Assembly (NCBI GenBank): GCA_032358255.1
Contig: JAULBX010026607.1
Coordinates: 124,001-188,000, forward strand
Direction: 5' to 3'
DNA from: Heterotrichella gracilis
Lineage: Eukaryota > Sar > Xanthophyceae > Tribonematales > Xanthonemataceae
Length of the DNA stretch: 64,000 nucleotides
Part shown: positions 5,602 through 53,000 of the stretch, piece by piece
Position numbering within the stretch: position 1 is the stretch's first letter
How the letters are laid out: each line of letters begins with the position of its first letter
The notes under the pieces: model-generated
Databases searched by the model: none
The model's input: only the letters and a program-made list of their open reading frames with translations
What the model was told of the DNA's origin: nothing
Made by a program: the position numbers and the translations under genes

Positions 5602-8600
5602 ATGGCACCGCACCAGCGAGAGGTGCACGCCGATGGCGACGAGAGCGCGTCGGACAGCGTGCACAGGCCGCTGCGCCCCACGGCGTCTGGCCACGACGTG
5701 AAGTATTCCAAGTTTGAACAGGAGGGCACGGGCCCCATCGTGGACATCGTCAAAGGCTGGTTCACCAAGCGCAAAGCAGGGTGAGGCTGTGGGTGGTGGG
5801 ACTGCTAGCCTGGTGTGAAAGAGCACAACCCGCCCCTTCTCTAGGACCATTTGGAAAAGGTCATGTGCCGGTCAACCATTGTGTGCTGGGCTGGTGGTAC
5901 ATGGTGCATAGCGCTGATTGCCACACCAGCGCTTGACCATTACCCCCACCCACCCCACCCCAGCCCCTTGTCCTCGACCCTAAACCCTAACCCCCCTGCC
6001 TGCAGCGCGCGCGAGGCCTACTCCAGCTTCACCTGGCTTGACTGGGTGGGCTACTTTGTGCCCTGCGTGACCTGGCTCAGGACATACAAGCTCAAGGAGT
6101 TCCTGCTGGTGCGCACACACACAGGGACCCACCAGGGGCACGGCAGCTGCACACCCTTGAATAAGGGTTTCTACAACCATTGTGTGCACCAGTTTGTGCC
6201 GGTGACAGCCCTGGCAGCACATATTGATGCCAGGACACACCCACCCATCTGCCCGGCTCACATGTGCACACCGCCCACACCCATCTTTGCACCCACCCTG
6301 GCTGCATGTGCGTGCCTTGCGGCAGCCATAACATGCCTTCATCCTTTCCCACCGCCAGCCCCTTTCCTGACCCCACTGCCCCCTCCCATCCCTCCAGTGG
6401 GACCTTGTGGCGGGCGTGTCTGTGGCCGCCATGGTGGTGCCCCAAGGCATGTCCTACGCACGCCAGCTGGCGGGGCTGCCCTCTGTGTATGGGCTGTACG
6501 GCGCCTTTGTGCCTGTGCTGGTGTATGCGGTGTTTGGGTCATCCAGGCAGCTGGTGAGTGGCGGGAGGGAAAACGATGTGGGGAGGGTGTGTGCAGTGCG
6601 TCGCTTTAGAGCGGCGCTTGCATGCCGGGCATGAGCTGCTAATTTTGCATGCGGTCCTCCTGGGAAGGGTGTTGGTCTGGGCAAATCACTTGGATGTTTT
6701 TCTGCATTCAATGCCTGCGGGTGCGGCCGTCCAAATGCACTATTTAGGTAGTACCTCTGCAGTCAGACGGGATGACACCCTCGCCTGCACTAGTACAGTT
6801 GAGGGTTTGAGGGTTGCCCCCCACGCAGGCTGTTGGCCCAGTGGCGATCACTTCCCTGCTGCTGCACAGCGGCCTGTCAGCCATGCCCCTGCCCAGCGGG
6901 GTGGCCACCTACCCCATCAAGCCTGCAAACTGCCCCCCAGACCTGGACTACACCTTCAACTCGGTGTCGGGCCACAATGTTTCCTCCTTCCTCACCTGGG
7001 AGGCAAACACCAATGCCGACAAGCCATGCTCTGCCAAGCTGCAGCAGCAGTACAACGAGAATGCCATCCAGGTGGGGCCCACGGCGTGCTTGGCAAGGAT
7101 TAACCCTGCAGAAGGGTTTGGTTCTGCTGCGGGCGGTGCAAGGGCAGCCAGTGGTGGTGTTGACAGGTGCTGGCCTGCATATTTGACTTTTTTTGTATAT
7201 ACATAGGATTTATTAAATACGTATTCGTATTTATTAAATACGTATCGCCAGTCCCTTCAGACACCTGCAGCATTGGGACACAGGTGGCTAGTGCCACCTG
7301 GAGTGCTTGTTATAAAAAGCAGCCACCCATCGCCATGGCTAGGCACCTGGATCGCTTCTCACATCAGGGTCATAGAGATGGCAACAAATACGAATAGTGA
7401 CTGGGACACTTGGAGGTCCTATGTACAAGTTTGCTGCCATGCCAACCCCTCGCCCCCTGGCTGCCCCCAGGTGGCCATCCTGGCTGGTTTCATGTACACC
7501 GGAGTGGGGTTGCTGCAGCTTGGCTTCCTCACCAACTTCCTATCCCACGCTGTCATCGCTGGCTTCACCACGGGCGCCGCGGTCATCATTGGGGTGAACC
7601 AGGTAACAACTGGAACTACTGAGCAAAAGCTTTGAAACATGATTTACAATACTTTAAAACAGTCTGTATTTCCTTGTGACATACAAAACAATCTTCCCTT
7701 CAATTCATCACATATCCTTTACAGCTGTGACTGCCTTTGGGTATTGTTGCTGTGGGGCATGCCCCATCAAGCTGGCTCGACCAAAGCAGCCTCAGGAGGG
7801 TATAAAAGAGGGAATTAGAGTCGCCTGGCTGCTGTGTGCGTGGCACCATCCCTAGGAAAAATAGTTAAAAACAAGAAAAACCTCCCACCACTTCCCTGAG
7901 CTGCATCTTCAACGGGTTTGCACTGCTCCGGTACCTTTGGCAAGGAGGCTCTTGTTGGAGTTCAGTACATTCCCATAATTGGTTCCAGCTGGCAAGGACC
8001 AAAGCTGGGTGCAACCAAAGTTGTATGTGATTATGAGGTTCCCGTTCAAGTAAAGCTTTCCTTGTTGGGGCGTCCTGGCAGGACCCATGTGTAGCATGCT
8101 TGCATCTACCCCCGGGTCACGACTAAGATCATCAGACAATGTGCTACACTTTCAAGCTCGATTCTCCTCGAACAATCAAGGCTTTGATTGCCATTTTGTG
8201 GCTCCTGCAGATCCGCTACTTCCTGGGCGTGTCCAAGCAGGTTGCTCAGTCAAACACTGTAATCGAGGCAATACAGAACCTGATCACAGGGTTTGACAAC
8301 GGGGCCACCGTCAACTGGCGCGACTGCCTCATGTTCACAGCGTGGATGATCATCCTCATCACATTCAAGGTGGGTAATCAGCACCATCAGCGGATGATCA
8401 TTTCTCATCACAAAGCAAAACATGCACGGTGGGTAATCGGCATCATTAGCCGGCGATCATCCTCGTGACATTTATCACATTCAGGGTGGGTCACTGGCGA
8501 CTGCAGTGGTCCTTCACCCCTTCTGTTGCCTATGTGTTTGTCCGCTGGTGGGTCATAGTGGTCAATGTCGCAACGAGTGGGTTTAATCAGCAGCAACATT

Positions 8601-11536
8601 ATCATATATCTGGGATGCGGCTGGTGGCCACTGTGTTGTTAGGCTTACATCAGAAGTGTATATATTAGAGTATTGTGGACGATGTTAGTCGGCCTTATGT
8701 TGCTGTTCATGATTTACAGCCCAACCTCACAGCTGTGGGCCAGGTCAAAAGCAGAACCTTGTGTAATGGGAACTGCTTTGCCTTGACAACAAGCCTATCA
8801 GCTGGCCCCAGGAGCTTGACATAACCCTAACAGCTGTCCACAAACCCTAACACCTGTCCAAACTCCTTGCCCCAGGAGCTTGGCAAGCGCGTGAAGAAGC
8901 TGTGGTTCCTGCGCGCATGCGGGCCCCTGCTGGTCACAGTGCTGTCCATAGCCATCACGGCGGGCGCCGGCCTCGAAAACCCTCCCAACAACCCTAAGGT
9001 TGGCGTCATCGGCAAGATCCCTTCGGGGCTGCCGGACTTCACGGCCGGCTGGTGGTTCCCGCTGTACAATGTCGGGGAACAGGTACGAACTGAAACCCTT
9101 TGGAATCTTGTAATGCATGCTCCCATGTATGTACATGACCAGGTTGCCACGAGTGCATTGTTTGCTCCGTTGTAGAAAGAAGGTATGTGCAACGCGGAGT
9201 TGGGGGGCACAAGTGCAAGCCGAATGGCTCACAACAAAACACCTCCGTACATACATGTGTTTGCCTTTGCTTTACAATCTGCTGTAGTTTGTAACCTAGC
9301 AACATGCTGATGTGCCCCTTGCAGATCAAGCTGGCAATACTCATCTGTGCGGTTGACATCATGGAATCGTATTCGATCGCCAAGGCCCTTGCCCTGAAGA
9401 ACAAGTACGATCTGCTGCCCAACAGGGAGCTGAGAGGTAAGCACAGCAGACTGGGTTTTCTGGGTACTGTTTAGGGTTTAGGGTTTTGCACAGCAGACTG
9501 GGTCAAGCACAGCTGGCCACATGTAGCCCGGCAGTACAGGTGCTGCAGTGCGGATACTGTAGTTTGGCAGTACAGGTCCGGCAGTACACACGTAGTGCAG
9601 TTGCACCATCCCTTGCTGGGTTGGGACCTGGGGCAAGCTTGGTGTCAGGAGGCATGGGGTGACCAGGGCACCCAGCCCGGTGCATAGCCCCGTCATCTGA
9701 CAATGCACCTGCAACTATACATCCTTACCGCCAGCCCCTCTCCCTCCCAGGCCTGGGCTTTGCCAACATCCTGGGCGCCATGTTCAACTCATACACCACC
9801 ACGGGCTCCTTCTCCCGATCAGCAGTCAACAACGACGTGGGGGCCAAGACTGGCCTGGCAGGAGCGGTGACCGGCATAGTGGTTATGTTTGTGCTCCTGT
9901 TCCTCACACCCGTATTCACTAACATGCCCAAGAACGCGCAAGGAGCAATCATTCTGTCGGCGGTGATTGGCTTATTCAACTATGGGGAGTTCCTCTTTCT
10001 GTGGAAGGTAGGCTTTTTTATGTATATTTGAAGGGTCTAAATGTAGAGTGAACAAGGCAGCATTTTGTGGTAACATGCACAAGAGGTAAGCTTCCACAGC
10101 GTTGAACACTCTCATTTCCATACTAACAGCTGGGCAGTCAGCACATTCATCAGCACCGCCTGCTTCCAAATGCACCCTGATCGCATCTCACAAACCCTCC
10201 CCCACCGCTGCTGCAGGTCAACAAGCTTGACTGGCTTGTGTTCACGGTGGCTGCCCTGGTCACCATGCTGGCGGGTGTGGAGATCGGCATTGTGACGGCG
10301 CTGGCCCTGGCGCTGCTCATCGTGCTGTTCAAGACCGCCTTCCCGCACACAGCGGTGCTGGGCAGGCTGCCAAAGACCCAAGTCTTCAGGTGCGGCGGCG
10401 TGGCATGGGACCATCCATCCCAAATATTTTCACATTTTTTATTTTTGTATTACTAGTTGAAATTATTTGTTGATAATGATAAAAGCAATGATGTACACAA
10501 TAAGTACGGATCTCATCTCAACTACATTTTTGGGGGCAAAGTACTTGGTGAGTAGTGGGCAGGGGTGTATGCACCGGTGGAACCCATAAACGATTAATAA
10601 AATTCCAATGTAGAGATTGGTTGCACCTGGTGTCATATGTGGCGTGGCGTGCGGACTAGGGATTAAGGATTGGGGCAAGGAAGATCTGTGGTGATTTGCA
10701 GGTCAATGCCTTTTGGAGTACTGCACTGCAAGCGCAGCCTGTGTGACACTGCTCTGCGTGCACCGCCTGCAAGGGGCCGCCAGGCTGCAAGAATGGAGGA
10801 TAGGTGCACCCATGCGCAACACATGCCCCCCGCATCCTCCTCCGCCTCACCCCCCTCATACCCCCCCTTTGCCCAGGAGCGTGAAGCAGTACCCAGACGC
10901 TGAGCAGGAGCCAGGCATGCTGCTGCTGCGGGTGGATGCGCCCATCTACTTTGCCAACGTGTCGCCCATACGCGACGCCATCCGCAAGTACAGCCTGGCC
11001 GCTGAAAAGAACCGCGGGGCGGTGCGCTACATCATCATTGACCTGTCGCCGGTGTCTGACGTGGACGCCACAGGGGTGCACTTCTTCAAGGTGGGTGATG
11101 GGCAGGGTGGGTAGGGTACCAGGGCCTGGCGGGGTCAAGCAGGGCATGCATGGGTGCCACGGGGATCAGGCAGGCGTGTGGGTGCCTTGAGCGTGAAGGC
11201 TGCCCTGCTCTTGCCTGGTACACAGCTTTGCAGCATGTTGAAGGACAGTTGGCTTGGGTCGTATTGCGTTCAAAGCCGTATACTTGAAGAGAAAGTAAGT
11301 AAACTTATTAACGGGCGCTGCTGATCGCCCCCTGCCCCCTCCTGCAGGACCTCATCGAGGATCTGGTGGTGGCCCGCATGCAGCTGGTGCTGGTCAACCC
11401 CTCCAAGGCTGTGGGTGCCAGCATGCAGCGCGCAAACCTGCTGCAGATTCTGGGCAGGGAGTGGGTGTTTGTCAACATGAACGACGCGGTGGAGCACTGC
11501 AAGGGGCTGGATGGAGTGGCCACTGGGGTGGTGTAG
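5602..11536 (+). CDS. SulP/SLC26 family anion transporter with STAS domain
   Basis: Multi-pass membrane anion transporter; sulfate is the usual substrate in plant and fungal relatives, but bicarbonate or other anions cannot be excluded. Twelve exons: 5602-5780, 6006-6108, 6398-6553, 6829-7071, 7471-7602, 8211-8369, 8876-9082, 9325-9436, 9751-10007, 10217-10389, 10877-11090, 11348-11536 (707 aa). After a polar N-terminus the SulP signature region reads [13 protein letters not shown] then [25 protein letters not shown] follows. The membrane core includes [18 protein letters not shown], and the [15 protein letters not shown] block conserved in the family. The C-terminal STAS domain (about residues 575-695) contains [17 protein letters not shown] loop of about 60 residues (about 155-215) between two early membrane segments is long for the family. 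ATG 5602 was chosen because the frame upstream has no earlier ATG. TGTAA lies at 11784. Confidence 0.92.
7209..7245 (+). repeat. 16-bp AT-rich direct repeat in SulP intron 4
   Basis: A 16-bp AT-rich unit ending in AAATACGTAT occurs twice (7209-7224 and 7230-7245). The same ACGTAT flavour dominates the inverted-repeat element at 61026-61542, so this may be a fragment of a related element, but the match is too short to prove it. Confidence 0.5.
8347..8496 (+). repeat. Decayed tandem duplication of the exon 6 splice-donor region (SulP gene)
   Basis: The exon 6 end plus donor (from GATCATCCTC through CATTCAAG|GTGGGTAATC) is echoed downstream. GGTGGGTAATC followed by a similar 20-bp stretch recurs at 8428-8460, and GATCATCCTC...CACATTCAGGGTGGGT recurs at 8454-8490. 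Only the first donor (8370) joins in frame to exon 7; the later ones look like cryptic donors left by local duplication. Confidence 0.6.
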
Positions 11537-12187: not shown

Positions 12188-15100
12188 CTAAACCACGTTG
12201 TCTTCAAGATTCCTCTCTGTGTGGCCAAGTGGTGTACCACAGAGCATGACGTCCCCTGACCACGTGTGCTCCAAGCGCGGCGTGCTACCCCTGCGGTGCA
12301 AGAGGCTGGCTGCGCCACCCTTGATCTGACATGATATCACCCCACAGTCCTCGTGCACCTGCGCTGTGTGTGCTGAGTATCTGTGCTGGCTGACCACATG
12401 TGCCTCCTGCACACTGCCTTCCACCTGCTCATCATGTGGAGGCTCAGCGCCAGTGACCTTGGATTCTGCTGATGCGGCATGTTCACAATCTGCCAGCTGA
12501 CCACCAGCATGTGCGTCAAGAGGCTGCTCAGGAAGAAAAAAGTACTGATCGATCTGCAAAGCACACAACTTGGGCATGAAATATACATGAAGATGCATCG
12601 CGCATGCCATATGATATACACACTCATTGCCAATGTCTATTGCCACATTATATCACATGGAGTAGTATACACACTCATTGCTCGGAGCAGTGTGATGGGC
12701 TGCAGCATTTGCTGGGTAAGCGTGTAATTAGTGAGTAAATTCGCTTAGTTGCTGAATATTTAATTGGTTGCTTATGACTCGCCACGGCACTCATACTGAC
12801 CCAGTACTGAATTTGCAAACAGGTGCATATAGATTTTCAAGTTTCACATGCTGCTTTGTTGAACAAAATTATTGTAATTTTCTTAAGAATTGGTTTAGCT
12901 AACATTGACCTGGGCCCTCCCCACCACCTGGTTCCAACTCTGATGCTTACCAGCACTGGCTGGAAGAATCGCCTGTGTTGTACAGCTACAAACGCCAGGC
13001 CCCCTAGAATGGCCATCATCATCAGCATCCCGGCAAAAATCCCAAACGAAGTCCCATTGAAGTGTGGACCAAATGGGTAGGGTGCAGTCGAAACACGTGC
13101 GGGTGTCCCATTTTGAGCAATAATGGCTGCCAGGGATGTGTAGTTGGGTGGCTGAATGGTGGAAAACGCGTTGGTGGCGACAGAGGTGCTGAAACGGCGA
13201 GGGGGGCGGGATGCGCCTGCAGGAATGCATATATGGGGCATTCAAGGGGTGATTAATTGGCATGGGTGACTCAACCACCTAGGTTGCAGAAATTTCTTCC
13301 TGTATGTTTCACCAGCTATGTTTAATGATGTTCACAACAGCTACATATCTCGTAAATCCTTTTGCAGCAGCACAGTTTTCGTTCAATACTACACAGGGCC
13401 AGTATTTGATTATTGCATTGGGTACCTTGCAAGGTCATAGCCCAAACATAGCCTCCACCAGACATACATGTTGAATCCAATGTGCATCAGCTTACTTGAG
13501 TTCAGCGGCACAGCTGGGTTCTGCATCTTGGAGCCAAGTAGGAACACCGGGACAGATATTGCCCCTGGCGCCACATCAATACTGTCAGTGAAGGTGCCAG
13601 GAGATGGCGTGACATAGGGCGAGACTGCGCTGTTATCAGGATATACATCAGCTGCTGGTGGGAAGGGGAGGAAGTGGACCATACTAGAGCCTGCGTCGTT
13701 AACAAAGATGTCCTGCCCCTGCCTACTGCTGGCAGTATTCCCATGGAAGTTGCTGTTGATGATGTATACAGTTGCACTGCCGTCAACACCGACTGCTCCC
13801 CCATACATCGCCTGCACCATGTCAAGTCAGTTGGATAATATGAGGCCACTTGCCATTGTGATGCGGATGGCATGCATGATTGTACTTTATTTTGCAGCTG
13901 TAGTTTTTTTTCCTTTTGAAGCACACAACAACATCCATTGCTTGTAGTCCGTCACATATGATGTGATGCCTGCACATGGTACAGACTTCACAATAAATTA
14001 ATATGCCAAGCCTGTTCAAGTACACTGTTTCAAGCTAGCTTAATTGTGCTGCACACCTGGTTGTCGTGGAATTCTGTAAGGTTCAGCGTCACAGTGGCGC
14101 TGTCCACTTGCAGCGCCCCTCCAGATGAGGTGGATGCTGCGTTGTTGCCAAATGTACAGCCAATGAAGGTTGCCATGGTGCCTGCCCCTTGCACATGCAC
14201 TGCACCTCCATAGTATGCATCATTGCCTGTGAAGTACGTGTCCTGAAATGAAGCTCGGGCACCACCTGGAAAGGACACAAGTCCAATCATCTTCAGATTG
14301 ATCAAGCTGACCACTGCGCATTTGCAGTGATCACATATGTGCTCCATGATGGGCTTGACATCTCAAGAGCAAATAGCGCCCTGGTCTACAAGGCATTCAA
14401 TGCTTGCATAAGTATAATTTGATTGGGTGGGGAAGAAATGTTTTTTTTTTCAAATTGGAAGAATGCACATGAAGACCAACTCAGAGAATCCGATGTTAAT
14501 CCTGACATACCATCAATGCGCAGCACACTGCCTCCAGCACTGCTTGCCACAAAGCCCTGCAAGCGCAGGCTGCTCAAGAATAGCTGTCCACCTGTGCCGC
14601 TAAAGTACAAGAAGTTGTCGGTTACCCCGCCTGAGGCAATTGTGCAGATGGTGCCTGCGCCAGTGCAGTCGCCAACCAAGCTGAGGCGCCGGTTAACCTG
14701 CAGGAGAAAACACACATCAGCGCTTGATACAGAAGATGAACAGAAAAAGTGCCCCAGACAATATGAATGCAGACAACTTCATGCAAAAAGCATACATGGT
14801 AAGCAAAACCCAGAGATTATGCCAACAACCAGTTCTCACCTGTGGTAATGAATAGTACGCCCAATTGGATCCATTTGTCAGTGTGATCTGAGAGCCTATT
14901 ACCACAACGGCAGAGGTGCCTGACAGCGCATCCCACAGCTGTTGGTCAGAGTGCACCTTGAGGCGGGGGATGACCACGGCTGGTGGCGGGGGCATGCGGG
15001 GTGGCTGTTGGGGAGTGCTGCCCATGATGGGGGTTGATGACAGATAGGCATCGGGGATGGGGGCCCGTTGGTAAGGGGGCAGAGGAGGTAAGGAGGGAGG

Positions 15101-17906
15101 AAAAGCAGGAGAGGGAGGGGAGGACACAAACGGGAGTGCACAGTTGGTAGGGTAGATGCTGATGTTTGGTGGTGGGAACGGGTCAAAGAAAAGCTGTATA
15201 CTGTTCCCCGTGCGTCCAAAAACGTCACTGCCGTCAAGCTGTGCAGAGCTGCCTGTGAAGGTGCAACGAATGAAGAAGGCAACATTAGTGCCAACATCCA
15301 CTGCCACTGCCCCGCCATTGGTGGCACTATTTTGGCTGAAATTGCTGAACATGAACCAGGTTTGCATCGTTGTCATTACAGCACCCCCCAATCCATAGCC
15401 AGCAACATTCTGATTGAACTCAGAGTCAAAGATCTGCAGCCGACCACTCCCAATTGCTGCAATCGCGCCTCCATCTGTCCCAGTGTTGTAGGCAAACTCA
15501 CAGTTGACAATGTCCAGCAGCACATTGCCAACCACATATACTGCTGCACCGACACTGGTGGTGGAGCCAAACTGGAATCGAAGATTTTCTATCCTGACCC
15601 TGGTCGGGTGGATCAGATCAGTGTTGATGATGTGCAGGATGCGGCCCCGTTTCTTGGCATCCAGCGTGCATTTGCCTCCCCAGTCACTGCAGGTGCCCCG
15701 CAGTGTCACTGACGTGCTGATGGTTGGGACAAGAGAAGGCACCCTGGAGCTGTTGCCAGTAAGGACCATGTGGGCTGCAATGGCAATCACGCTGGCCTGC
15801 TGCGCCCATACAGCATTGAGCAAGGAGACTTCGTCTGTGACAGTGACGTCTGGCGGGGCTGCGGGGGGTGGGGGGGCTGGCGCTGGCGGTAGATTGAACT
15901 GGAACATGGTGCTGGGTGGGGGGAAAGAGCGGTAGGAGGATGTTTTGATATCTACTGGAGCTGCTGGCCAGTCTGGTTCAGATGGATGGCTGGTCATTCT
16001 TGTAGTGGAGTTGTTTGGGTACACATCCACCAAGCTGGGAAATGGGAAAATGTAGAAATGCGCCGCGGTTGCATTGACCAGATAGGCATCCTGGCCATAC
16101 ACGATGGCGACATTGGAAGAGAATATAGAGTGGGTGACATACACTGAGGCTGCCGGCTCAATGCCTATGGCTCCTCCATTGCGCCCACGGTTGGAAGTGA
16201 AAAGGGAGTCATCGGCAATCACCAAGCTTGGTGAGCCTCCGGCACTTATGGCGCCACCGTACAATGCAGCAGTGTTGCTCTGGAAAGTACAATTTTGTAG
16301 CCTTGCGTACGCCATCTGTTGCAGGGATATTGCTCCGCCTTTAATCGCTTTGTTTGAGGTGAAAGAGCAGCCTTGAACTTGGACCATTGCTCCATTGCTT
16401 GCAAAAATTGCGCCTCCTTCTGATAGGCTAGCATTGCCGTTGGTGAAGCGTATGTTCTCAATTGCCACTGCTGCTGCTTGACCGGCGATGCGCAGTATGC
16501 GGCCGCGGAACTTTGCATCCAGCGTGCAAAGACTCCCTAGAGTGGTACATGACCCCTGGGCCAGTGACCCTCCAAGTGTCAGGATAAGAATAGAGAATGC
16601 TCAAGTCGAAAAAGAAAATAGGATGAGCATATAAAAAAGCTGTCCCATGCCATGGCATCATGCTTGCCGGTTTACTGCGGCAGCACTCACAACGCTGCTA
16701 AGATGTGGCCCACATTCAAACAAGGTGATTTTGTGTCAATTTTGGCACTGCTAGGATGAGGTAGCACATGCAGCAAAATTAATATGCTAACAATCTACGT
16801 ACCCACAGATAGAGGAATCGCGAGACAGGGGGTAACAGTGTGCCCTCCACATCAGTAACACCTGCATGCCATGGCGATTGGTTAGGCATTGGGACAAGGA
16901 TAGATATTTACATGCACTTGCATTGCATCTGACAAAGATGATTAATTGCGGCAGGTGTGCCAACTTCATGTAATTGTAAAAAGCTTGCTTGGCGCCGCAT
17001 GAGCAAGGCTGACAGCTAATCTGAGTAATATATGAATAAATCTCCAAAGTTCATGAATTAAGTCCCATATGTCTCAATGCTATAAGCCGTCTCCACCACC
17101 GCTAAAGACGATTAGCTAATAAGATTATTACTCTTCAACAATCCCAGTATCTGTATTTTTTTCCGGGTGAAGCTTTGCTGATTCATAGTTTTTGTTTGGA
17201 AGCAACACCATGCTACAATATACACTGTTGATGATGCGGCATGGATGATGCATGATGTGTCATACGGCAGGAATGCAGAAACGCAAACACCAGCTTACCA
17301 TTCGGCCTGCATGGTCAAGGCATACCCTTAGAACCACAAATGCGGTGCTAAACTCATGTGTTGACCGATGCCCAATGATGGTCTACGGAAACCTGAGTGT
17401 CTACCGACTTGTTTAACCCACCTGTCAGCACAATGTGCGAACGCAGCTCTATGATAGGTTGTCCTTGCTGGATTGCGGCCACCAGTTGTGCCTCACTGTA
17501 TACTGGGAGCCCTGACCTCCTACGCAGAGTGGCAAGACTCGACCCAGGAGTGCGCCCAGGGCCCCACACAAGCGCTGGGGCAGAAGGAGGTGGCTGCATT
17601 GGAGCAGGAACAGGAGCACCTATGTGGGGAACACGGAGGAGGCAGCATTTTTGGCAGTGGTCTCTCTGCGCGTGTGGTGGCCCCGGGCGTGAAGCTAGCA
17701 ATGTGTGGTGGAATGGCAAACTGTCAAAGCAAAAGTATGCAACTTTTCATGAAGCTATGAACATATAGAAACCAGGTTCTCGTGCTTAGCATCAGTTTAC
17801 CTGTGGAGGGGCTGCACCAAGCCAACCAGCTTGGGTCTGCTAGGGTCACCAGGGTCACCAGGGTCAACACTTGCCAAGGACAAGGGCCAAACCCTTGACG
17901 AGCCAT
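12188..17906 (-). CDS. Large surface protein with three right-handed beta-helix (PMP-repeat) modules and a C-terminal membrane helix
   Basis: Predicted type I membrane or cell-surface protein of 1165 aa. Exons, 5' to 3' on the minus strand: 17906-17801, 17694-17422, 16861-16803, 16555-14840, 14697-14511, 14265-14057, 13811-13496, 13216-12951, 12553-12188. Residues 1-30 contain a hydrophobic stretch (VLTLVTLVTLA) fitting a signal peptide. Three modules each open with a segment like EAQLVAAIQQGQPIIEL followed by S-H-I-V-L-T-G, then a C-T-L-D-A-K block, then FxxN...GGAI repeats such as FTSNKAIKGGAI, FQSNTAALYGGAI and FTSNRGRNGGAI. These are the repeats of chlamydial polymorphic membrane proteins and fold as parallel beta-helices. 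Pro-rich linkers separate modules. A single membrane segment (FAGMLMMMAILGGLAFVAV) near residue 1020 precedes a polar tail of about 140 aa. The first exon and its acceptor are inferred from phase and the in-frame signal peptide; the rest is firm. Function unknown; cell-wall or adhesion roles are guesses. Confidence 0.8.
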
Positions 17907-19612
17907 TTCGGTCAGAGCAAAGGCTGAGTACTCCTGAAAATATGAAAGCTGATGGAGGTATAGAAGGAAAGGAGTTACAGCAACCACAGCTAGTTGTGTT
18001 CCACTGGCATGCCTGTTTCTTGGTTGTCAAGTTGATCCTTGGGCAGCTACCTCAAAGTTTCAGCCACATCGAGTAGCAACACAACGGTTGCTTAACAATT
18101 ATGACCGTCGTGTTGCCTACCAATTATGACCGCACTGTGTTTCGTGACACAGCATTGGTGCTAACTCCCACTTGGCATGGCAACATTCGGTTGCATCGCA
18201 TGCACCAACCACTGCTAACAAACAAGCGAGCCCCAATTTCCTTCCGTGCAGGATATCTTAGCAAGCAAATGGAAGTAAGTCGTTCTGCTCCTGTAGTCGG
18301 GGGAATGGCTGAGGGTTATATTAGTCTATTATCTTGAAATTGTTTATATTAGCATGCATATTTTTATGCATGCATCGTTCTTCGTTGCGTGCTGGTTTGG
18401 CAGCCTAGATTAGCCTCTTCAAAGCAGAAACTGAACGTCGAAACAAAGAAACCAGTTGTCGTACTGTCTGGCATGTCACCTTTGTCGGACTGGACCTGCG
18501 TTGTTGCTTCCGAGAGAGAGCCCATAATAACCCTGCCGCAACCGGCCTTTCGGTGACATCGTTTAAACGCGTTGCGCCTGATACCGTCCTTTTGATCGCA
18601 CCGCTGCTAGCCTCCGCTTTGTGTCCCTTTTGGTGACTCTCAGGACCAGCATACCTCACCGTCAACTCATCTCATCACGCCATCTGTGCTGACCCCGACT
18701 TGGACTGGCCACTGGTGGACACCAACACGCTGGTAAACCCGACAAGATTCCTGTTTTGCAGCTAACTTACGATCAACATCTGGTACGCACTTTTGTTCTC
18801 CCTCATGCTCACCACACTAGGCATCTACTGGTGCACAGGCATGCATGGGATACACATGGCTTGGTATGCCTCAGCACACATCTCACAGGCATACGTTACA
18901 CTAAGGGCACAGATAAGTATAGCATGGGAACACGTGCATGGGCACACATGGCACTGCATGGCCACAACTATTCAACCAGCGTTGGGCCACATTCGCCCAC
19001 ATGGGCATATGCACGGTCAGGGTATCTAGCTCAACCTTGATCGAGTTAAAGCGGGCTCGCTCGACTTTTAAGTGTTATTTTCAGCTTGGCAACGTTGTGG
19101 ATGTGATGGCTTAAGTAAAAGGACTGAGTGTGCCTCACTGCCTTGCCTAGTGTGGAGCTGTTTGGGGGGAGTGTCTGCTGCGTGTGTACCCCCAGGGCAG
19201 CACTGAGCTATGTGCCTGCCGTGTCGCAAGCGCACGTACAGACTTCTAGTTTCGGCTACTGTGTAAAGGCGATAACGCACCGCTGCCAAGCAACCCATCG
19301 GTGCTTAGCTTGTAGCCAGAGAGCAATAGCAGCACCCCCCCTAAACACTAGCACCCACACTAGGCAAAGCTGTGAAGTAAACCATCACGGCACTCTGTGA
19401 CGTCAAACTCAATTCTGATCCGCAACTAGTCGCACCTACTTCTTGCTTGCACCACCCATCATTCAGCGCATACCACTAACTAGCTTCCAAGCCCAACACC
19501 GTGCTCAAGCTTCCTTTCCAGTGTGGAACTCGCCCTTTACTGTGCAGACCCTCTATCCCAAGTACTCAACACCTGCCCGCCACTCCAGCCTAACCATCCA
19601 GCCCTCCCCACC
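17907..19612. other. Divergent intergenic region, about 1.7 kb
   Basis: Separates the 5' ends of the beta-helix protein (-) and the NAD-glycerol-3-phosphate dehydrogenase (+), so it should hold both promoters. CAATTATGACCG occurs twice near 18096 and 18120. Open frames here are short and resemble nothing known. Confidence 0.4.
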
Positions 19613-22116
19613 ATGGCGACCAACTTCAGCCAAGAGCATGCCAAGGTGGGCGTACTGGGCGGCGGCGCATGGGGAACGGCGCTGGCCATCCATGCCGCGC
19701 GTATGGGCCACCAGGTCAAGCTGTGGGCGCTGGAGCAGGAGGTGGTGGAGGGAGTGAATGGGCCCGACCACGAGAACAAGCTGTACCTGAAGGTGAGACC
19801 TGGTCATAAACCTGGCTCGGAGTAAGGGTTGTATTGCACCACCTGTCCAATTTGCACATATTACGTAGTGTTTTTTGACCACTCCAGTGTATTCCAGTAA
19901 AAACAACTTCCTACAAGAAAAGTGCGCACTTCAGTAGGCCGTACTAACACTGTGTGGCTGTTCATGAGCATCAGCGTGCGTGTGTTGCAGGGCTACAGGT
20001 GCCCAGACAACTTGACCGCCAGCACCGACATTGTGGAGGTTGCAAAGTTTGGCGAGGTGCTGCTGATGGTCATCCCCACCCCCTTTGTGGCCCGCACCAT
20101 GGAGCGCCTGGCCGACGTGGTCACCCCGCAGCAGATCCTGGTGTCCTGCACCAAGGGCATCATGAACGATACCCTGGAGACGCCGCATGACATACTCAAG
20201 GTGGGCACGGGCACAGGCATGGGCGGTGGGGAGCATGGCTTACATGGTAGCGTGTGACAGGCATGGTCTGCAGATCGTGCGGCTATCTGAGGTGCTCGAT
20301 CCTTGCAATAGCAATGACCATGGTTCTTTGAGAATAGATATAACTAAACAATTTGCTGCTGTTGCCACATAGACTGTTCCACATTTGCAGCATGCCCCAC
20401 ACCCCATCCAACCCTTCCCTCCCCTCTCCTCCAGCGCGTCCTCCCGCCAGCCATGCACCCCCGCCTGGCCTACCTCAGCGGGCCCTCCTTTGCAGCCGAG
20501 GTGGCGCAGGAGCAGCCCACCGCAGTCACCGTGGCGGCAGAGGATGAGCTGGTGGCCGCACGGGCCCAGGACCTGCTGTCAACCAACCGATTTAGGTGCT
20601 ACAGGTCAACGGATGTGATTGGTAAGTGGCGGGGCAGTGACGAGAAGGAGGTGTGGATGGCAGTTAAGTGGTGGAAGCTGGGAGGTGAATGTTGGGCGCA
20701 CGCACCCCAGTGTAATGCTATGGCCTCATACTTGATTATTTGTAGTGCTGGGCGGAACGTGGCGGAGGTAGCATGTGCATTTCCAGCAGTTTGCCCACAC
20801 CGTGCATGGCACTTGCCGGATCATATTGCCTGACAGATCCCGCCTCCTGTTCGCCCCCAGGTGTGGAGTTGGGCGGTGCACTGAAGAACGTGCTGGCCAT
20901 CGCTTGCGGAATCTCCGACGGCCTCAACTTTGGCAACAACGGCCGCGCCGCCCTCATCACTCGGGGCCTGTCTGAGATCACCAAGATGGCGGTGGCCAAG
21001 GGGGCGCACCCACTCACCATGGGAGGGCTGGCGGGCATGGGAGACCTGGTGCTCACATGCACAGGTGGGGAGGGGCAATACATGAATTAAAAACGTACTT
21101 CTATTTTTCACTAACAGAATTTACAGGAATTTTTAGACAGTCAAGAGGGAGCCAACCCCAAATTGTTGTTTTCAGCAAATTGTTGTTTTTAACAAATTAA
21201 ATATAATAGATATCTGTGGAGCATGTCGAAGGAATAGACATTGCCTCGTACAGTTGGGGAGGGCCCAGGGCACGTAACTGGTTGATATGCACCCCTGTGT
21301 GTGGCCACCTGCTTGGTTCGATCTGCCCGGCCACCACATGATGGGCCTGATGTATGGCTTGTGTGCAGGTGACCTGTCGCGCAACCGCACTGTGGGGCTG
21401 CGCATTGGGCGCGGCGAGAAGCTTGATGACATCATCGCATCCATGCATGGGGCGGTGGCAGAGGGTGTGCTGACAGCCAGGTGGGTGCCTTGAGCCATGT
21501 TGGCACAGGTGCTTGTTAATGTAGTATAAGGGTGATTGCTGAATGGGAGGTAGTAATGTGTCATCAGCGGATATGCCTTGCTTGTTGGTGTAGCTTGATC
21601 ACAGTCAAGCACACTTGATTATCTGCCAACGTGGTGTGCCCATCGCCTGCCACTGACCGCGCAGTATGCGCAGCCCTATGATCACCTCCTGTGTGCCTGG
21701 CCTGCAGGTCCGCTCACGAGCTGGCCAAGAAGCTGGGGGTGGACTGCCCGGTCATCGAGGGGATATACAGAGTCCTCCACAAGAACGAGGATGCCAAAAA
21801 GGTGGGTTGCTGCAGCGCCATGGCATCCACTCTCGGGTTGGCTTGTATAAGAACTCATGTGGCATATGGCATGGTAATGCTTACCCTTGTCCACATGCAT
21901 TGGGCCCCGTGGAAGTGGTGTGCACACATGTCCACATGCTGGTCTAGGCAATGCATGTTTTGGCCAGCAGGGGGTGTATTGTTCTGTCCCCACTTGCAAG
22001 TTGCCCTGCCCCCGCCACCCCCTCCTGCTACTGTGCAGGTTGTTGCCGAGACTATGAGCCGCGCGCTGAAGCCTGAGGTGGATGTGGCAGTCATGGCGGC
22101 AGCGGGGCAGCACTGA
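19613..22116 (+). CDS. NAD-dependent glycerol-3-phosphate dehydrogenase
   Basis: Reversibly converts dihydroxyacetone phosphate and NADH to sn-glycerol 3-phosphate, feeding glycerolipid and glycerol synthesis and the glycerophosphate shuttle. Exons: 19613-19792, 19991-20200, 20435-20621, 20861-21064, 21369-21480, 21708-21801, 22039-22116 (354 aa, the size of bacterial GpsA and its eukaryotic homologues). The Rossmann motif [13 protein letters not shown] lies at residues 13-25. Also visible are [17 protein letters not shown], the catalytic-Lys block [18 protein letters not shown], and [19 protein letters not shown], all diagnostic of the GpsA fold. The model starts without a clear transit peptide, so it may be cytosolic. 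The frame stays open upstream of ATG 19613 but without another ATG. No N-terminal phosphatase domain is present, unlike the bifunctional chlorophyte enzymes. Confidence 0.94.
21102..21158 (+). repeat. Short interspersed repeat, copy B (glycerol-3-phosphate dehydrogenase intron 4)
   Basis: Aligns to copy A at 3271-3332: an ATTTTT tract, a TTTACAxGA core, GACAGTCA, and the end GGGAGCCAACCC. An AAAAACGTA string also precedes both copies. Both lie in introns on the same strand as the gene. Confidence 0.55.
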
Positions 22117-26525: not shown

Positions 26526-28728
26526 CTATCCCATCCTGTATCGCTTTTCATCATGCCCGTCATGGTCCATGGCCACCTCCCCAGGCTCGCCAATCTCCCC
26601 CGCCTCCAACTCCCCCTCCTCATAGTCAGAAGCCGCCTCCCCCTCCTCCCTGAACACAGTGCCACATACCTTGCACACAATACCACACCCTACAGTGAAG
26701 CCTGTGCTTTGACCAACGGAGTGATCGTGTTGCAACCTCACTTGTTTGACATAAGCCACATGGTGGCAACCAGTTGGTGTTAACACATGGCAGCAAAAGC
26801 CAGGGTTGTCATGACTTACCAACCTATTCATTGTCGGGGTGCGATGGAATGTAGGATGTGATAAAACAGGCGCCACTCGAACATACCTATCGACCTGAGG
26901 AGGGGTAACAGCCTCTTCCTGATGCTGCCGCTGCTGCGGTTGAGGCGGTGGTAGTTGCGGCGCCGGCTGTATTTGTGGGAATGGTCTTGCCTGTGGCGGA
27001 TGCGCATCTGTTTGCTTTCCCTTTGTTGCTGCCCCCTTGTGCAGCTGCCTTGCCTCGTTGAAGTCAAGCAGCAGGGGCTTGCTGGACTTTGCAGCTGCCC
27101 GAGACCCAGCGTTGCCTGCCGCTAAGCCCTGCATGAGGCATGTGCCACTTCCGTCATGAGCAGTCTGGACATGCAAGTGCATGCAGCACAGGGATGATGT
27201 CTACGTCACAGCATGCAAATGGTGTTGTGGGCGACATGGCGGTACCCTGTCATCAAGTGCAACACCGTGATGATGAAGAGAGTAAAAATACCCCGTCCCC
27301 ATAAAATTACGCCAGCAGCCCAGCAAGGATCAAGTAGTGCAATGTTCACGCATGCAATGTGCACCGTGTATGAGTGCCCTACCGCAATTGGCCTGCTGAC
27401 AGGCTTGCTTGATCGGAACATGTCCACATCCCCCACACGGCTGCGCATGCCTTGGGACCCCCCTGCAGCATGCCCGCATGCTGTGTCATCACATGCACAC
27501 TGCACATGTGGCTGTGGCATCCATTGGGGTACACATGTGTAGCATGCGCTGCGGCGATGCGAGCCCAGAATGGATCCACAAAGAGATCGCCATTGGCACG
27601 AGATGTGATCCTTCCACAGATACAATTCCAACACACCCTGAACAAGCTCAGAGAGCAATCGCCAGGTACCAGTGGTCGCGAGTGAGCATGCAGAGGGGTG
27701 CATGTGGTGAGGATAGCAAATGCGTGCAGACCTGGTGCGGGACGGCCACTGAACCCCGCTCCAGTGGTTTGCCGGTCCGGAACCACGGAGGGCGGCGCGG
27801 TGGCGCGGTGCGCTATAAGCGCCTGCGCCACAGCTGCTGGGTTGCTGACGTGGAAGTGCTGCTGGGGTTGGGCAGCCTGGGGCACCTGCTGGTGCTGCAA
27901 CACCCTAGGGTTGAGGTACATCTCCTGCAGGTGCAACACGGCCTGCTCAGCTGTCTAGACCTGGTGCATGTCAATTGTATCCACCACTCCCTGCTCTTGC
28001 TGAACTACATGCTTACTTATTTCGAAATGCAAGGTCACATGGGGATTGCGCTTGCTGGGATGCTAGTGGCTTACCTCCAGTGGCCTGAACCCCGCTGTGT
28101 TGGCCGATGGCAACTGCTCCCATATGGTTTTCAAGGTGCTCCTCACCTGTAAGGAAAGAGTGGTTGTTGCTCACTACAACTGCGACATACAGACAAGCGT
28201 GACAACGAACAGCAACAACTCTACATAAAGCATGTCAGACAATGTTGGTATATTCAAGGTGCAGTTGTAGAGGGTTTAAAGCGCACTCGAGGAATGCAAC
28301 ACCGTACCAAGACTGGTTATGGGAAATGGTCAACTGTATGACACCAACACAGGTGCTGCGGTGGCACTCTTGTGCACTTGACGCTACATGCATGCATATG
28401 GTTGTCCACCCACCACAGAAGACTCTGCAAGAACGTTGTCGAGGTCCAAGAACCCGTCATAATTTTCCACAGCGTACGCTATGACTCTGACCCACTCGTC
28501 ATCGGCAGCTCGTGCAGCATCTGCAAGCTGACGCAGCGCAGGGCGCAGCTCTTCCACAGCATGCGGTTTCAAAAACAGCGGGGCAAGCAGCAATCGGACC
28601 CGCACTAGCGGGTCAAGCTTATCAAACCTCGCAATGAGCTGCTCTAACGTGTCTTGGTTGAGTTGCGCGGCGAAGTTGGCTGCACTCCACTCCCCAGCAA
28701 GGCGAGCTTCGGCCTGGTAATGTGCCAT
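26526..28728 (-). CDS. NELF-A-like protein (negative elongation factor A homologue)
   Basis: In animals NELF-A binds RNA polymerase II within the NELF complex and helps hold it in promoter-proximal pause. Firm exons on the minus strand: 28728-28414, 28146-28075, 27942-about 27732, 27128-26887, 26649-26526; at least one further exon probably lies near 27630-27540 and its borders are unresolved. Residues 1-105 form a helical domain (LVRVRLLLAPLFLKPHAVEE, then a D-E-W-V-R-V-I-A-Y segment) that lines up with the human NELF-A N-terminus (VKLKLLLGTLHLPRRTVDE, then D-P-W-V-L-M-V-A-D). The next two exons give FRPLE and EMYLNPRVL, matching LPLECQYLNKNAL. A later LLLDFNEARQLHKG segment recalls LLDISELDMVGAG. 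The remainder is Gln/Pro-rich, and the C-terminus is acidic (DYEEGELEAGEIGEPGE). Family assignment rests on remembered human sequence, not a search. ATG 28728 is the first ATG in frame. Confidence 0.55.
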
Positions 28729-29030
28729 GTCCGCAAGCTTCGCGATCGTTGACAATAATGACGGTGCACTCAGAGGAGGAATAGGTAGTCAACATCCGTC
28801 GCTCGTTCTTTAGGTCTGTTGTATGCGTGGTTCCGTTATCACTGATTGGGCACTGTTTCGGGCTCACTCCGCGTCCTGCAGCGGCCTCTTACTGGCACCA
28901 CTATGTATTCGATAGGTAACACTTGTGGCTGCCTTAAGTAGTAGGTGTTTGAAAGAATACTGTTCTTTCCGCTGGGGTTGTGACATGGCGACGGGTTGAA
29001 AAGTGTTTTTCTGCCGCACTGTTGAACAGC
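28729..29030. promoter_or_regulatory. Short divergent promoter region (302 bp)
   Basis: Separates the start codons of the NELF-A-like gene (-) and the YqaJ-like nuclease gene (+), so both promoters must lie here or in the first exons. It contains an ATTGG (inverted CCAAT) near 28843. A four-codon upstream frame (ATG at 28985, then stop) precedes the nuclease start. Confidence 0.5.
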
Positions 29031-31549
29031 ATGGATATGGCTTCAGGCAACTTGCCGAACCTGTACTGGCGGGCACTGGGTGTGGAGGACATACGCCGAC
29101 ACCCGGACTATGTGGCTCTCCCGCCAGTGGAGGAGACTGCAATTGGGGATGCCTGGTCGTTCAGGTGTGTGTGGCGGGTGCATCATGCTGCAGTACTGGT
29201 GTGCATGCATAAGCGCATGCATGCATAAAGAGACCGCACCAGCTGCCTTGCCATGCTCCAGCTGGCTCCTGTATTTCCACTAGCATGGGTGTTAATCCTG
29301 CTTTGAAGGGTCGACAGGCCTGCTATTCACTTCATCTAAGCACATGTTTCCAGGTGGATACCTAATGCATCCATAGGCGTGCACAGTGCACACTCTTTGT
29401 GGACAGTGCACAATCTTTGTGGAGCACCTCCCACTCTGCTTTCCATTACCAACAATTTAAGTGCCTGAAATCCCCCTCCCGCTTCAGATTTGTCCGCCAG
29501 GACAGCGAGCTTTGGAGCGTGCTGCACCAGGGGCGCCTCACCACCGGCAAGCTCAACGCCGCACTGGGGTTCTTCGAGCCAAAGGCAGCCAAGCGCCTGG
29601 GCATGGCATCAGAGTTCGTCAACCACGGCGCGTTGATGAACGCATACCAGCACCTGCAGGACGCGCCCTATGTCCCCGACGATGTTGTGCCAGCGGGTCA
29701 GGCAGCGGAGCACAACCTCCAGCTGCTCAAGGCATACAACGACAAGCACAGGGCAGAATCTGACAAGGCTGCACCTGCCGCAAGCGTTCCAGCGCCTCCG
29801 GCAAGCAGCGCCGTGGCTGCTGGACCAACTCCTAGCGCGCCTCCCAGCAAGCCACCGAGTGGGCCCGCACTCACCTGGCAGCAGTTGGAGGTGCTTGGCG
29901 GTGGCAGCAGCACGGGGAAGAAACCCAAGCCAAGGCGGCCCAATGCAGCACCTGGCCCTGCACCCATCACAGGGGGTTGGCGGCCAAAGCACGGCACGGC
30001 AGAGGACCAGAAACGGCGCCACGCGGCCACGTGTCGCACCCGCGGCATGGACCACGTGCGCTGCAGCTGGGGGTCCATACAGGAGCCAGGCACCATGTAC
30101 AGCCTGCTGAAAGAGTACCCGCAGTCCAGTCTGCAGGAGGTGGGGCTGTGCATGGTGGATGTGGGGTACCTGAAGCAGGCGTTTGGGATCGATCCGACCA
30201 CGCTGCCGCCCCTGGGGGCGTCGCCAGATGGGTTCCTGAGCCATGCAAGGGGTGCCGTGGGGGCTGGGGAGGGCCCCGCACATGTGCCTGTGTGGCGACG
30301 GCCGAAGGCTCAGCAAGATGGCGATGCCGCAGCAGCAGGTGGAGATGGGTCGGATGACATGGATGTGCTCCTGCGCCAGCTTGAATTCTCGAGCATCAAT
30401 AGCAGCGCCCACACTGGTGCCGCTGGCTTGTCAGCATCGCCTGCATCACCCCCTATGGCTCCACCAGCAGCACCGGCCACCCCGCCGCCTATCGCAGCCC
30501 ATGCAGTGCTGTCCACCCTGCATGAGGCGCTGCAGGGGCTCTCACCGGTAGCAGCTGCCAGCAGCCAGGACCAAAGCGGCGGGGATGATGCAGCGGGAAA
30601 GGGGTCCCGGGAAGACATCTTTGTGGATGAGGTCGTGGAGATCAAGAACACATGCCCATTCGGCCATCTGGCACCTGCGCCTGGCAAGAAGCTGCGCTGC
30701 CATTTCTGTGTATCAGACCGGGGCCCCCGGCAGCAGGTGGGATCATGAGGCATGGCGGGGTGCTTTTTGCCACATGGACATCAAACCTGATCAAGTAGCA
30801 ATGCTGGTAGCTGACTGAACATGAACGGGACATGGCATCTGGCTTTGCATGAATGCTCAGGTGTTCAGTGAATGCATGAGAAAGTGCAGAACGCCAGGCT
30901 GCCGCATAAGACTCAACGCCACCAGCATGGCATGCACGGTAGCGCTGCTTCAACCACCACCACCCTCCCGTTTCCATTGCAGGTTCCTCCCTACTGGGTC
31001 CCTCAGCTGCAGATGGAGATGCTGGCCACAGGCGCACAGTCGGTGCTGCTCATCAGCCGGTCAGCAACCAAGGTGGGCAGGTCATGTCACATACCGCAGT
31101 TAACACTTCTCATGACATGTGTGCCCCGTTCGTGCTGTGCATCATGTGCCTTCACATGGCCCTTGGCAGGTCTAACTAGGTATAGCCCCTTGGATAGCCG
31201 CATGACTTTATGTCCCCGTCTAATGCCAACTTGCCCAATCCCTCTCCAGCCTCACCGGCACTTAAGCCCCTCACCTCTGTGCACCCCATCCCACCCGCAG
31301 GGCATCACCATCTACCGCATGCGCCGCGACCACCAGTACCTGCGCACCATGCTGGCCGTAATCGCCCGTTTCTACACCGTGCATGTGCTCCCGCGCCGCC
31401 CGCCGCCCCATGACATGTTCTCCGACTGGCACGAGTACCACCGCCTGCTGGCCCTCACTTGCAGCCTGGCGCGGCAGGCGGAGGTGGTGCGCCAGGTGGC
31501 GCAGCCACATCATGCGCCGGGGAGTGACAACCGCCTGTTCCTGGACTAG
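29031..31549 (+). CDS. YqaJ/lambda-exonuclease-like PD-(D/E)XK nuclease
   Basis: Predicted DNA exonuclease or recombination nuclease. Exons: 29031-29164, 29488-30736, 30983-31072, 31301-31549 (573 aa). The N-terminus carries SELWSVLHQGRLTTGKLNA, like the start of YqaJ domains. The core motifs occur in order: an acidic helix (SWGSIQEPGTMYSLL), LGASPDGFL (catalytic Asp), VDEVVEIKNTCPF (E-x-K), and PPYWVPQLQMEMLATG (the conserved Gln helix). Two Ala/Pro-rich insertions break the domain: about residues 130-200 before the acidic helix and about 300-405 between the Asp and ExK motifs. The large second exon (1249 bp) contains nearly the whole core. A C-terminal helical tail follows. No organelle signal is obvious; location unknown. 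TGTAA is at 31736. Assignment to the fold is good; the biological role is not known. Confidence 0.8.
29383..29422 (+). repeat. 20-bp tandem duplication in intron 1 of the nuclease gene
   Basis: Two adjacent 20-bp units (29383-29402 and 29403-29422) beginning ACAGTGCACA and ending CTTTGTGG differ at one base. They sit about 65 bp before the exon 2 acceptor. Confidence 0.85.
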
Positions 31550-50061: not shown

Positions 50062-53000
50062 ATGGAGGTGCGCTGCCTACTTGTGACACCACCCATTAGA
50101 CGAGGTCTTCAACTGGGGTGTGGTGGTACACTAAACTAAGGCTACACTCTGCAGGGCATCGCAGGCCCAGTGTCGTCAGTCTCGCAGCATAAGAGGGAGG
50201 GGAGCATCTGGCAGAAGTTTGACGAAAAATCCAGATCAGAAGAAAGGTTTAGAACTGAGAACCAGGTCTTGTCTGCTCAGAAGAAAGAGTCAATCAAGGT
50301 ACAACTGCCAGCACCTGGGTGTCCCTCCAACTGTGACCTGTGAACAACACCTCACACTTGGCCTACAGTGACAAGCAGAGCACAGCAGCGCTGCAATGCA
50401 ATCCGTGCACCTGTCCCTGTACCTGTGCCTGTACACAAGCCCTGCCGCCGTGTTTGCAGGAAGTGAAGCAGCTGCGGGAGCAGCTGGACGCCTACAAGCA
50501 GCACTGCGCCCTGCTGGTGAACCGCCTGGGGCAGTACGAGGACCTGCTGGGCATACCGCTGGACCAGCGCCTGCACCCAGAGGTGGAGTCGCCAACCAAG
50601 CAGTCTGCCGAGCTCAAGGCCTCCTCCTTCAAGTCCTCCCCCAGGGGTTCTGAAGCCAACTCCCCTAACGAGGTGCGCGAGAAGGCGGAGCTGGCGCACT
50701 CGCTCATGGACCTGGCCACCATTGAGGCGCGGTGCGGGGAGCTGGATAGGCGCTGCCAGGAGCTGCAGGAGGAGAACAGGCGCCTGAACACCAGCGTGCC
50801 GATGCAGCGCACAGCGGCGCAGTCCGGCGAGCAGGCTGCTGTAGCAGGTGAGCTGCTGGTGGCAGGTGAACTGGGAAGCTCCATGCACTCTCCAGCTGTA
50901 CAACAAGGTTAGCAGCCAACCTTCCTTTTTTATTTTTATTTATCAGCGTCGAGCTTGGCACTGTTCATACAATGTGCAATATGTAAGCAGAAGGCTGCTT
51001 GCAAGCCTTTCCCCCTTGCATCCGGATGGGCGGCTAAGATGTAAGCAAGCCCTTAATGTACGCCGCCAATGTCTGCCAGTGCGATTCACCATTGGTGCAG
51101 CTGACAGTAATTTTGCAAAAACCAGCCAAACACACAATGAAATGAAACTTAAAACAGGAAAGTATTGTTTTTTATGTATTTCTTGTATCGATTTATTGCA
51201 AATTTAATGTATTTGCATGCTGCAGGCCTGGTTGAGGAGCTGATGGAGCAGAACGGCGACCTCATGGAGCAGAACATGCAGCTGACGGAGCAGTTGGCCA
51301 TGGTACAGGAGGAGCTGGACGACATGCATGCAGCGGCACTGAAGCTGACAGCAGATCACAATGCTGCGCATGGTGCCACGCGTGCGCGGCTGGCGGAGGT
51401 TGAGCAGCAGCATACCCTGCTGGTGAAGAAGCACAGCGAGATGGAGATGGCGCTGGCGAAGGCTGTGCCACCCACGCCCTCTGTGTCCTTGTAAGTACAT
51501 GCCGGATCGATGGGTGTGGGTGATTGACGGGTGGCATGGATCCAGTGGGGCAGCATGTCTGGGCACTCACATGTGATGTGGTGGCAAGGGGGGTGCAGTT
51601 GGTGCCGGGCACGTTGGGATTATGGGTCAGCATCACGCAGTCTAGCCACGGCTAACCAAATGAGAGTGCGACCATCAAGATGCACTGGTCAATGCCTGCA
51701 TGCATGGGTGCATGGCATCGATTGTGATGTGTCAGGTACTGTATACGGTAGGATGTAGCACTGAGTGCCCGCTGCCTGGCATTCCTGAGGGGGCTCTCCG
51801 TGTGGTTGCTGCAGCGCGGACGACGGTCCCGAGACGCACCACCTGCAGCGCAAGGTCCGCAAGCTTGAGAAGAAGATCGACTACATCATTGTGCAGAAGG
51901 CGTCCCAGATCAACGATGACAACCTGCGCATCATCCAGGAGCTCACCCAGGACAACATGCGGCTGGAGGGGGAGCTGCAGTTGCAGCGCGCGAGGGTGCA
52001 CGCCATTGTCAAGGACAGCAACGCATCGATGGAGGGGTATGACCGTGAGAAGCTGACGCAGATGGTGGATGCGGAGAGCAAGCGATATGTGAACGACAAG
52101 CAGGCGGTGAGTGCCCTGAAGCCTTGTTAAGAACGTGTCGTGCATAATGTAACAAATCTGAATGTAACATTAATAATTTTACATTCACATTCGTGGACAT
52201 GTTTGCCACAGACATTTTTAATATTGGCAATAACAGCATACTAATACAAAATGGGAACCTGTTTCTTATTTATCTATGTTCTCAACATCTGTGTATGGTA
52301 TTTATGCATGTGTGTCGTATCCAATCATGTTGAGATTGATATACATTAGAACATTGGATAAAACCTACACTGGATCTGTAAAGAAAGAAGCTCCCTCCAT
52401 GGCATATGTAAACAGAAAAATCCTTGTGCTGTGCAGATGTTTGACCGCACCCAGATGATGGCGGAGATGAACAGCAGGTTGATGGAGGAGAACGAGCAGC
52501 GCCTGAAGAAGCTGCGCGCCGCCATCCGCGAGAACAACCGCCTGCTGCGCCAGGGCGCAGGGGGTGCGCACATGACGTCGCGGGAGTATGAGCAGCAGCT
52601 CAAGCTGGTGCGGGAGCTGACTGCAGACAACGAGCAACTGGTGGCAGAGAACAAGCGCCTGCATGATAGGTACAGTAGGACTGGAGTGGACGAAATGGGC
52701 AACCTGTTGGTGCCATCAAAATTGATTGCATGCAATTTGAAAATACTGTAGTTCTGCAGGTTACAGATTGTGATTGGTGCTGGTCATTGGAACATGCATG
52801 GGGGCGAGTGCATGGCCGCGGCGGGCTCATGTGCAGCGGTGCCTGTGCAGGGTGATGCAGCTGCTGGGCGACAACTCGGAGGTGATGAATCGCCTGGTGG
52901 ATGTAGCCTTCAGCGACCCCTTTGCAACGGAAGACGACCACGACCTCCTGGCCCAGGCGGGGCGGGGCTCCACCATGCAGCGCCACGCCTATGCTGCGGC

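Follow-up and report, generated by a model that had tools for sequence, protein, structure and literature searches.

Within the window, that is, the whole 64,000-nucleotide stretch of DNA analyzed here, a single gene of six exons occupies positions 28728..26526 of the minus strand, to which all of the following exon coordinates refer, and has an open reading frame 1026 nt long, made up of 341 codons and a stop. The exon model of this gene was drawn by inspection of the sequence; all junction phases agree, and the five introns, with lengths of 267, 150, 269, 254, and 237 nt, all have GT..AG ends. Exon 1 (28414..28728) runs from the ATG to residue 105 and encodes an N-terminal helical domain that holds LVRVRLLLAPLFLKPHAVEE, as well as the Trp residues W14 (28687..28689) and W79 (28492..28494), which match W24 and W89 of human NELF-A in the alignment. 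The NELF-C-binding extended region begins in exon 2 (28075..28146; residues 106-129), which is in phase 0 at both ends and finishes with PLE, and continues in exon 3 (27732..27924) with EMYLN (residues 130-134), corresponding to human 141-145 inside the NELF-C horseshoe, followed by a Q/P/A-rich linker. The donor after exon 3 (GTCTGC, at 27731) is weak, and the 3' end of this exon is the least certain boundary of the model. An earlier note on this DNA had placed the exons on the minus strand, where they indeed lie, and had left a gap between 27732 and 27128, which can be filled on paper by one 80-nt, phase-consistent exon, here exon 4 (27383..27462), harboring DMFRSSKPVSRP at 27389..27424. Exon 5 (26887..27128) contains LLLDFNEARQLHKG at 27033..27074 and then a P/Q-rich low-complexity stretch, and exon 6 (26526..26649) encodes an acidic tail (EEGEAASDYEEGELEAGEIGEPGE...) closed by a TAG stop codon.

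Profile searches identified the product as a member of the family of NELF-A, an animal protein that takes part in restraining RNA polymerase near gene starts. The 314-aa model without exon 4 matched the Pfam profile NELF-A_N (PF23553) with 39.4 bits (E 7.2e-10; cut-off 27), with residues 13-138 of the protein aligned to positions 16-142 of the 146-position profile, and exon 1 alone reached 34.1 bits, again above the cut-off of 27; as this exon is contiguous in the DNA, its Pfam score rests on no splice assumption. The only other Pfam family detected at E up to 10 was RasGEF, at 11.8 bits against a cut-off of 23.1, so that the relative of NELF-A proposed for this alga by the earlier note is borne out by a score above the curated cut-off, with the sole other listed family far below its own. 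In NCBIfam, exon 1 matched DesA_ISL3_tail alone, with 13.8 bits and under the cut-off of 30. When 230 residues without exon 4 were compared with the PDB by phmmer, all three distinct sequences found at E up to 10 were NELF-A chains (5l3x_A, 6.7e-9; 6gml_U, 5.8e-8; 8uha_U, 8.7e-8), and with exon 4 included the whole protein found these three chains, the best with an E of 1.4e-8, and no others at E up to 1. Judged by these matches, the gene encodes a genuine NELF-A homologue.

Direct comparison with the human protein localized the likeness. The local alignment of residues 1-157 with human 1-188 scored 127, a value reached by none of 1000 shuffles (mean 29.4), and the likeness held when the region was divided: none of 2000 shuffles scored as high for residues 1-78 against human 1-88, for residues 79-157 against the HDAg-like region, i.e., human 89-248 (PMC9068813, excerpt), or for residues 91-157 against human 101-188, and a single one of 2000 did so for the stretch from exons 2 and 3 (residues 106-157) against human 101-188. 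The 377 stop-to-stop frames of at least 80 aa in the window were compared with human 1-188; the one bearing exon 1 scored 95, and the runner-up scored 48. Taken singly against the whole human protein, exon 1 was clear (0/500 shuffles) and exon 4 marginal (6/500), and exons 2, 3, 5, and 6 were at chance (260, 138, 221, and 253 of 500 shuffles, respectively); the significance of exons 2 and 3 appears only once they are joined and compared with the expected region. The first two of the three ordered blocks named in the earlier note, LVRVRLLLAPLFLKPHAVEE in exon 1 and FRPLE|EMYLNPRVL across exons 2 and 3, thus match NELF-A in the correct order.

The conserved part of the protein coincides with the surface that, in the human complex, faces NELF-C. 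Across human 24-165, 37 of 141 aligned residues are identical, and identity to the human protein over the aligned pair is 24%. The excerpted text of PMC4940160 describes W24 and W89 as inserting into pockets of NELF-C and the NELF-A helices a7-a8 (138-154) as buried in NELF-C; both docking tryptophans are present in the alga, and 7 of the 17 residues of the buried segment are identical (P138, L139, E140, Y143, L144, N145, and L149). NELF-A contributes six residues to basic patches 1 and 4 in the human lobe, and none is kept: R65 and R66 are aligned with P and H, K146 with P, K161 with Q, K168 with a gap, and R175 with Q. It contributes seven to polar patch 5, of which none is identical, K181 being conservatively replaced by R; beyond human 165 the alignment underlying these assignments is unreliable. 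The basic patches are reported to be well conserved in metazoans and partially in Dictyostelium (PMC4940160, excerpt), and because of this partial conservation we do not treat them as family-defining. The NELF-C-facing surface of the algal protein therefore looks conserved and the proposed nucleic-acid-facing surface does not, a pattern from which we infer a NELF-C partner.

The C-terminal portion presented a different picture. Human 189-528 forms a tentacle that binds Pol II and DSIF (PMC9719515, excerpt), and residues 158-341 of the alga aligned with it at a score of 60, reached by 65 of 1000 shuffles, which shared low-complexity composition may explain. The whole-protein PDB search produced a sole alignment in the tail, at -3.6 bits, which contains the exon 4 motif. 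The third block of the earlier note, LLLDFNEARQLHKG, aligns with human KLLDISELDMVGAG and was considered as the counterpart of the KLLDI/KLLDISEL motif of the human tentacle, a likeness that we rejected as evidence, since it is not distinguishable from chance: for residues 158-260 the score was reached in 376 of 1000 shuffles, and for residues 197-260 in 132 of 1000. Searched against the PDB, the stretch of exons 4 and 5 gave 13 weak hits, 12 to clathrin and one to DHX29, all at E 0.2 or worse and none to NELF-A.

The DMFRSSKPVSRP motif of exon 4 resembles human EMFKTANKVTRP (443-454), with a weak extension into the following AGSR. Against human 411-528, a region picked after the alignment had been viewed, 19 of 8600 window peptides scored as high as this motif, and against the whole human protein 453 of 8600 did so. 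The 58-aa block of exons 4 and 5 was equaled by 103 of 1393 against the whole human protein and by one of 1393, possibly the block itself, against human 411-528. Exon 4 is the best of six exons tried against a 528-aa partner, and its likeness to the human C-terminal motif is no more than a suggestive lead. If the motif is real, the human C-terminal piece would precede LLLDF in the alga, whereas KLLDI (255) comes first in the human protein; given this opposite order, at most one of the exon 4 motif and LLLDF can be a collinear match.

Taking these features together, the locus is probably best explained as an algal NELF-A homologue with an algal NELF-C/D as its partner and with a contact to Pol II during early elongation. 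The N-terminal domain and the extended segment that follows it, whose homology is shown by sequence, would constitute the NELF-C/D-binding half of a NELF-AC lobe; the pairing itself is suggested by the conserved interface residues, and an effect on pausing would be a further step from it. The disordered, proline-rich remainder could correspond, in shortened form, to the tentacle by which human NELF-A binds Pol II. The lobe may be located close to the funnel of Pol II and may act with DSIF and core NELF-B/C to slow elongation at its early stage, by extension from the human complex, in which RPB8 and the funnel are touched by NELF-A/D and pausing depends on the NELF-A tentacle (PMC11139899, excerpt). 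Any control by RNA would probably differ in the alga, where the basic patch residues of the human lobe are not kept. A role in pausing is plausible. An algal NELF-C/D partner is likely, because NELF-A and NELF-C are reported together from Chlorella variabilis (PMC4940160, excerpt) and NELF-B and -C/D are described as widespread in eukaryotes and apparently lost in land plants (PMC11482795, excerpt). Within the 64-kb window, a Pfam scan of 60 segments (59 of the 75 listed plus one more, the 16 omitted including three pieces of the NELF-A gene) brought up neither a NELF-B nor a NELF-C/D family within an E of 1e-4. According to the excerpt of PMC11482795, maize shows a focused 5' polymerase peak even though land plants appear to have no NELF-B or -C/D; a 5' polymerase peak alone would for this reason be no proof of slowing by NELF.

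An unlikely alternative is that the NELF-A homologue binds NELF-C/D without pausing Pol II, the core acting instead in early termination, RNA processing, or outside the nucleus, with the pause-stabilizing tentacle of metazoans missing. The tail that cannot be aligned agrees with such a role, as do the statement, in the excerpt of PMC11482795, that the HDAg-like domain occurs only in animals and Capsaspora, and the argument, in that of PMC10591015, that NELFB has pausing-independent functions and that pausing is undocumented in such lineages. It is countered by the match of residues 79-157 to the human HDAg-like region, which none of 2000 shuffles equaled, and, at a suggestive level, by the resemblance of exon 4 to the human C-terminal motif.

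It is very improbable that the gene encodes an unrelated helical protein resembling NELF-A by chance or through shared helical composition. Such a protein would accord with the outcome of fold prediction, in which a Foldseek comparison of the exon 1 model with the PDB gave 18 weak matches at E up to 10, of which not one reached E 0.001 or carried the name NELF-A; the model was built from a single sequence with a pLDDT of 64.7, and because of this low confidence the missing NELF-A match says little. Set against it are the curated Pfam cut-off passed twice (39.4 and 34.1 bits), the retention of the interface residues, and the controls: in addition to the shuffles, the exact reversal of residues 1-157 fell at background (541/2000), and a near-reversed sequence did not match NELF-A_N in Pfam, the sole family listed for it being TetR_C_36 with 16.5 bits, where 33.7 is the cut-off. 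An origin as animal DNA contaminating the assembly, or as a decayed copy, had no observation in its favor and is extremely improbable given the frame intact across six exons, the identity of only 24% to the human protein, and the plastid-type genes of the same window (porphobilinogen deaminase, PAP_fibrillin, and a D1-type protease).

These neighboring genes establish that the window belongs to a plastid-bearing eukaryote; they would fit a green alga, probably as the simplest reading. The closest PDB match of the porphobilinogen deaminase is the chloroplast enzyme 4htg (275 bits, the next at 163.2), the protease matches the photosystem II D1 protease 1fc6 (122.6 bits) about as well as a probable carboxyl-terminal protease (123 bits), a PAP_fibrillin gene was detected by Pfam, and a eukaryotic CCT-beta chaperonin scores 542.7 bits to T-complex protein 1 subunit beta.

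Having identified the gene as a NELF-A homologue, we compared it with known relatives. It shares with human NELF-A (5l3x, 6gml) the N-terminal domain and the NELF-C-binding segment (human 24-165), both tryptophans, and PLE..YLN; it differs in its length (341 aa, against 528 in human), in the basic residues of patches 1 and 4, which are not kept in the alga, and in the tentacle, which apart from one weak motif cannot be aligned. A premise behind the earlier note, that no NELF-A is known in the green lineage, is outdated in view of reports from Chlorella variabilis (PMC4940160, excerpt) and Chlamydomonas (PMC13089224, excerpt). The former, published in eLife in 2016, credits both Dictyostelium and a green alga, Chlorella variabilis, with homologues of NELF-A and -C, and describes divergence in most regions beyond the AC core; the Chlorella protein is similar to ours as an algal NELF-A reported with a NELF-C, the likeness being one of description only. 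The latter (PeerJ 2026) gives NELF-A domains for Cre07.g357500 and Cre10.g454350, associated in a co-expression network with GPD2 and GPD3, respectively; these are likewise algal NELF-A-domain genes, likened to ours by description (domain, expression) only, and there are two of them in Chlamydomonas and one in this window. The NELF-A gene is new in this window, and its kind has already been reported from green algae, so that it is not a first. DNA-pattern scans for relatives gave 15 hits (protein alone) and 35 hits (two-sequence alignment) in viral contigs and 71 hits in contigs of prokaryotic genomes, none of which was confirmed; the collections being viral and prokaryotic, these scans say nothing about algae.

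Printed accounts of the origin of NELF-A disagree, PMC10591015 and PMC11482795 standing against PMC4940160, which names Chlorella. For single-cell organisms including Viridiplantae, PMC10591015 (excerpt) found NELFB and NELFC orthologues and none for NELFA. The gene described here is hard to reconcile with two of these statements if they are read strictly, namely that green algae have no NELFA (PMC10591015) and that the HDAg-like domain is confined to animals and Capsaspora (PMC11482795); the algal match (human 24-165) covers just the first part of the HDAg-like region 89-248. A clear algal NELF-A with both docking tryptophans favors an early origin followed by later loss. More tentatively, and with doubt outweighing confidence, one may propose that a full NELF-A, with the half that binds NELF-C as well as a tail that engages Pol II and includes the DMF....V.RP of exon 4, existed already in the ancestor that animals share with green plants, that green algae keep a working NELF brake on Pol II, and that land plants lost this brake. 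If true, such an ancestral full NELF-A would contradict the published model of a late origin of NELF-A and the HDAg-like region towards animals. The gene also raises a testable question, i.e., whether Pol II undergoes promoter-proximal pausing in an alga that has NELF-A without the human basic patches.

Several other genes of the window deserve mention. A divergent neighbor (29013..30748, plus strand), the first exon of which is guessed, may have its start some 300 bp away from that of NELF-A. Searches with the 402 aa of its long exon found nothing in NCBIfam or the PDB at E up to 1; in Pfam no family reached 1e-4, DUF641 coming closest with an E of 0.099 and a score under its cut-off. The product contains a GASPDGF stretch that may resemble YqaJ-type nucleases. 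On the minus strand, a 627-aa open frame (14717..16600) combines a right-handed beta-helix and Chlamydia-PMP-type repeats with proline-rich linkers between them. A coiled-coil gene, apparently of several exons, lies at 50457..54310 (plus strand), and the three of its segments that were scanned gave only sub-cut-off Pfam matches, e.g., Rootletin. Pfam matches, with places assigned by eye, further indicated on the plus strand an NAD-dependent glycerol-3-phosphate dehydrogenase gene (19601..21051) and an FAD-dependent oxidoreductase gene (62292..63775) that looks like the FAD-type glycerol-3-phosphate dehydrogenase. The presence of these two genes in the window with NELF-A recalls the co-expression networks of the glycerol-3-phosphate dehydrogenases GPD2 and GPD3 in Chlamydomonas (PMC13089224, excerpt), a coincidence that may mean nothing. 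A caspase-domain (metacaspase-like) gene (2898..4501) and a sulphate permease with a STAS domain (6401..11512), both on the plus strand, were likewise recognized by Pfam and placed by eye.
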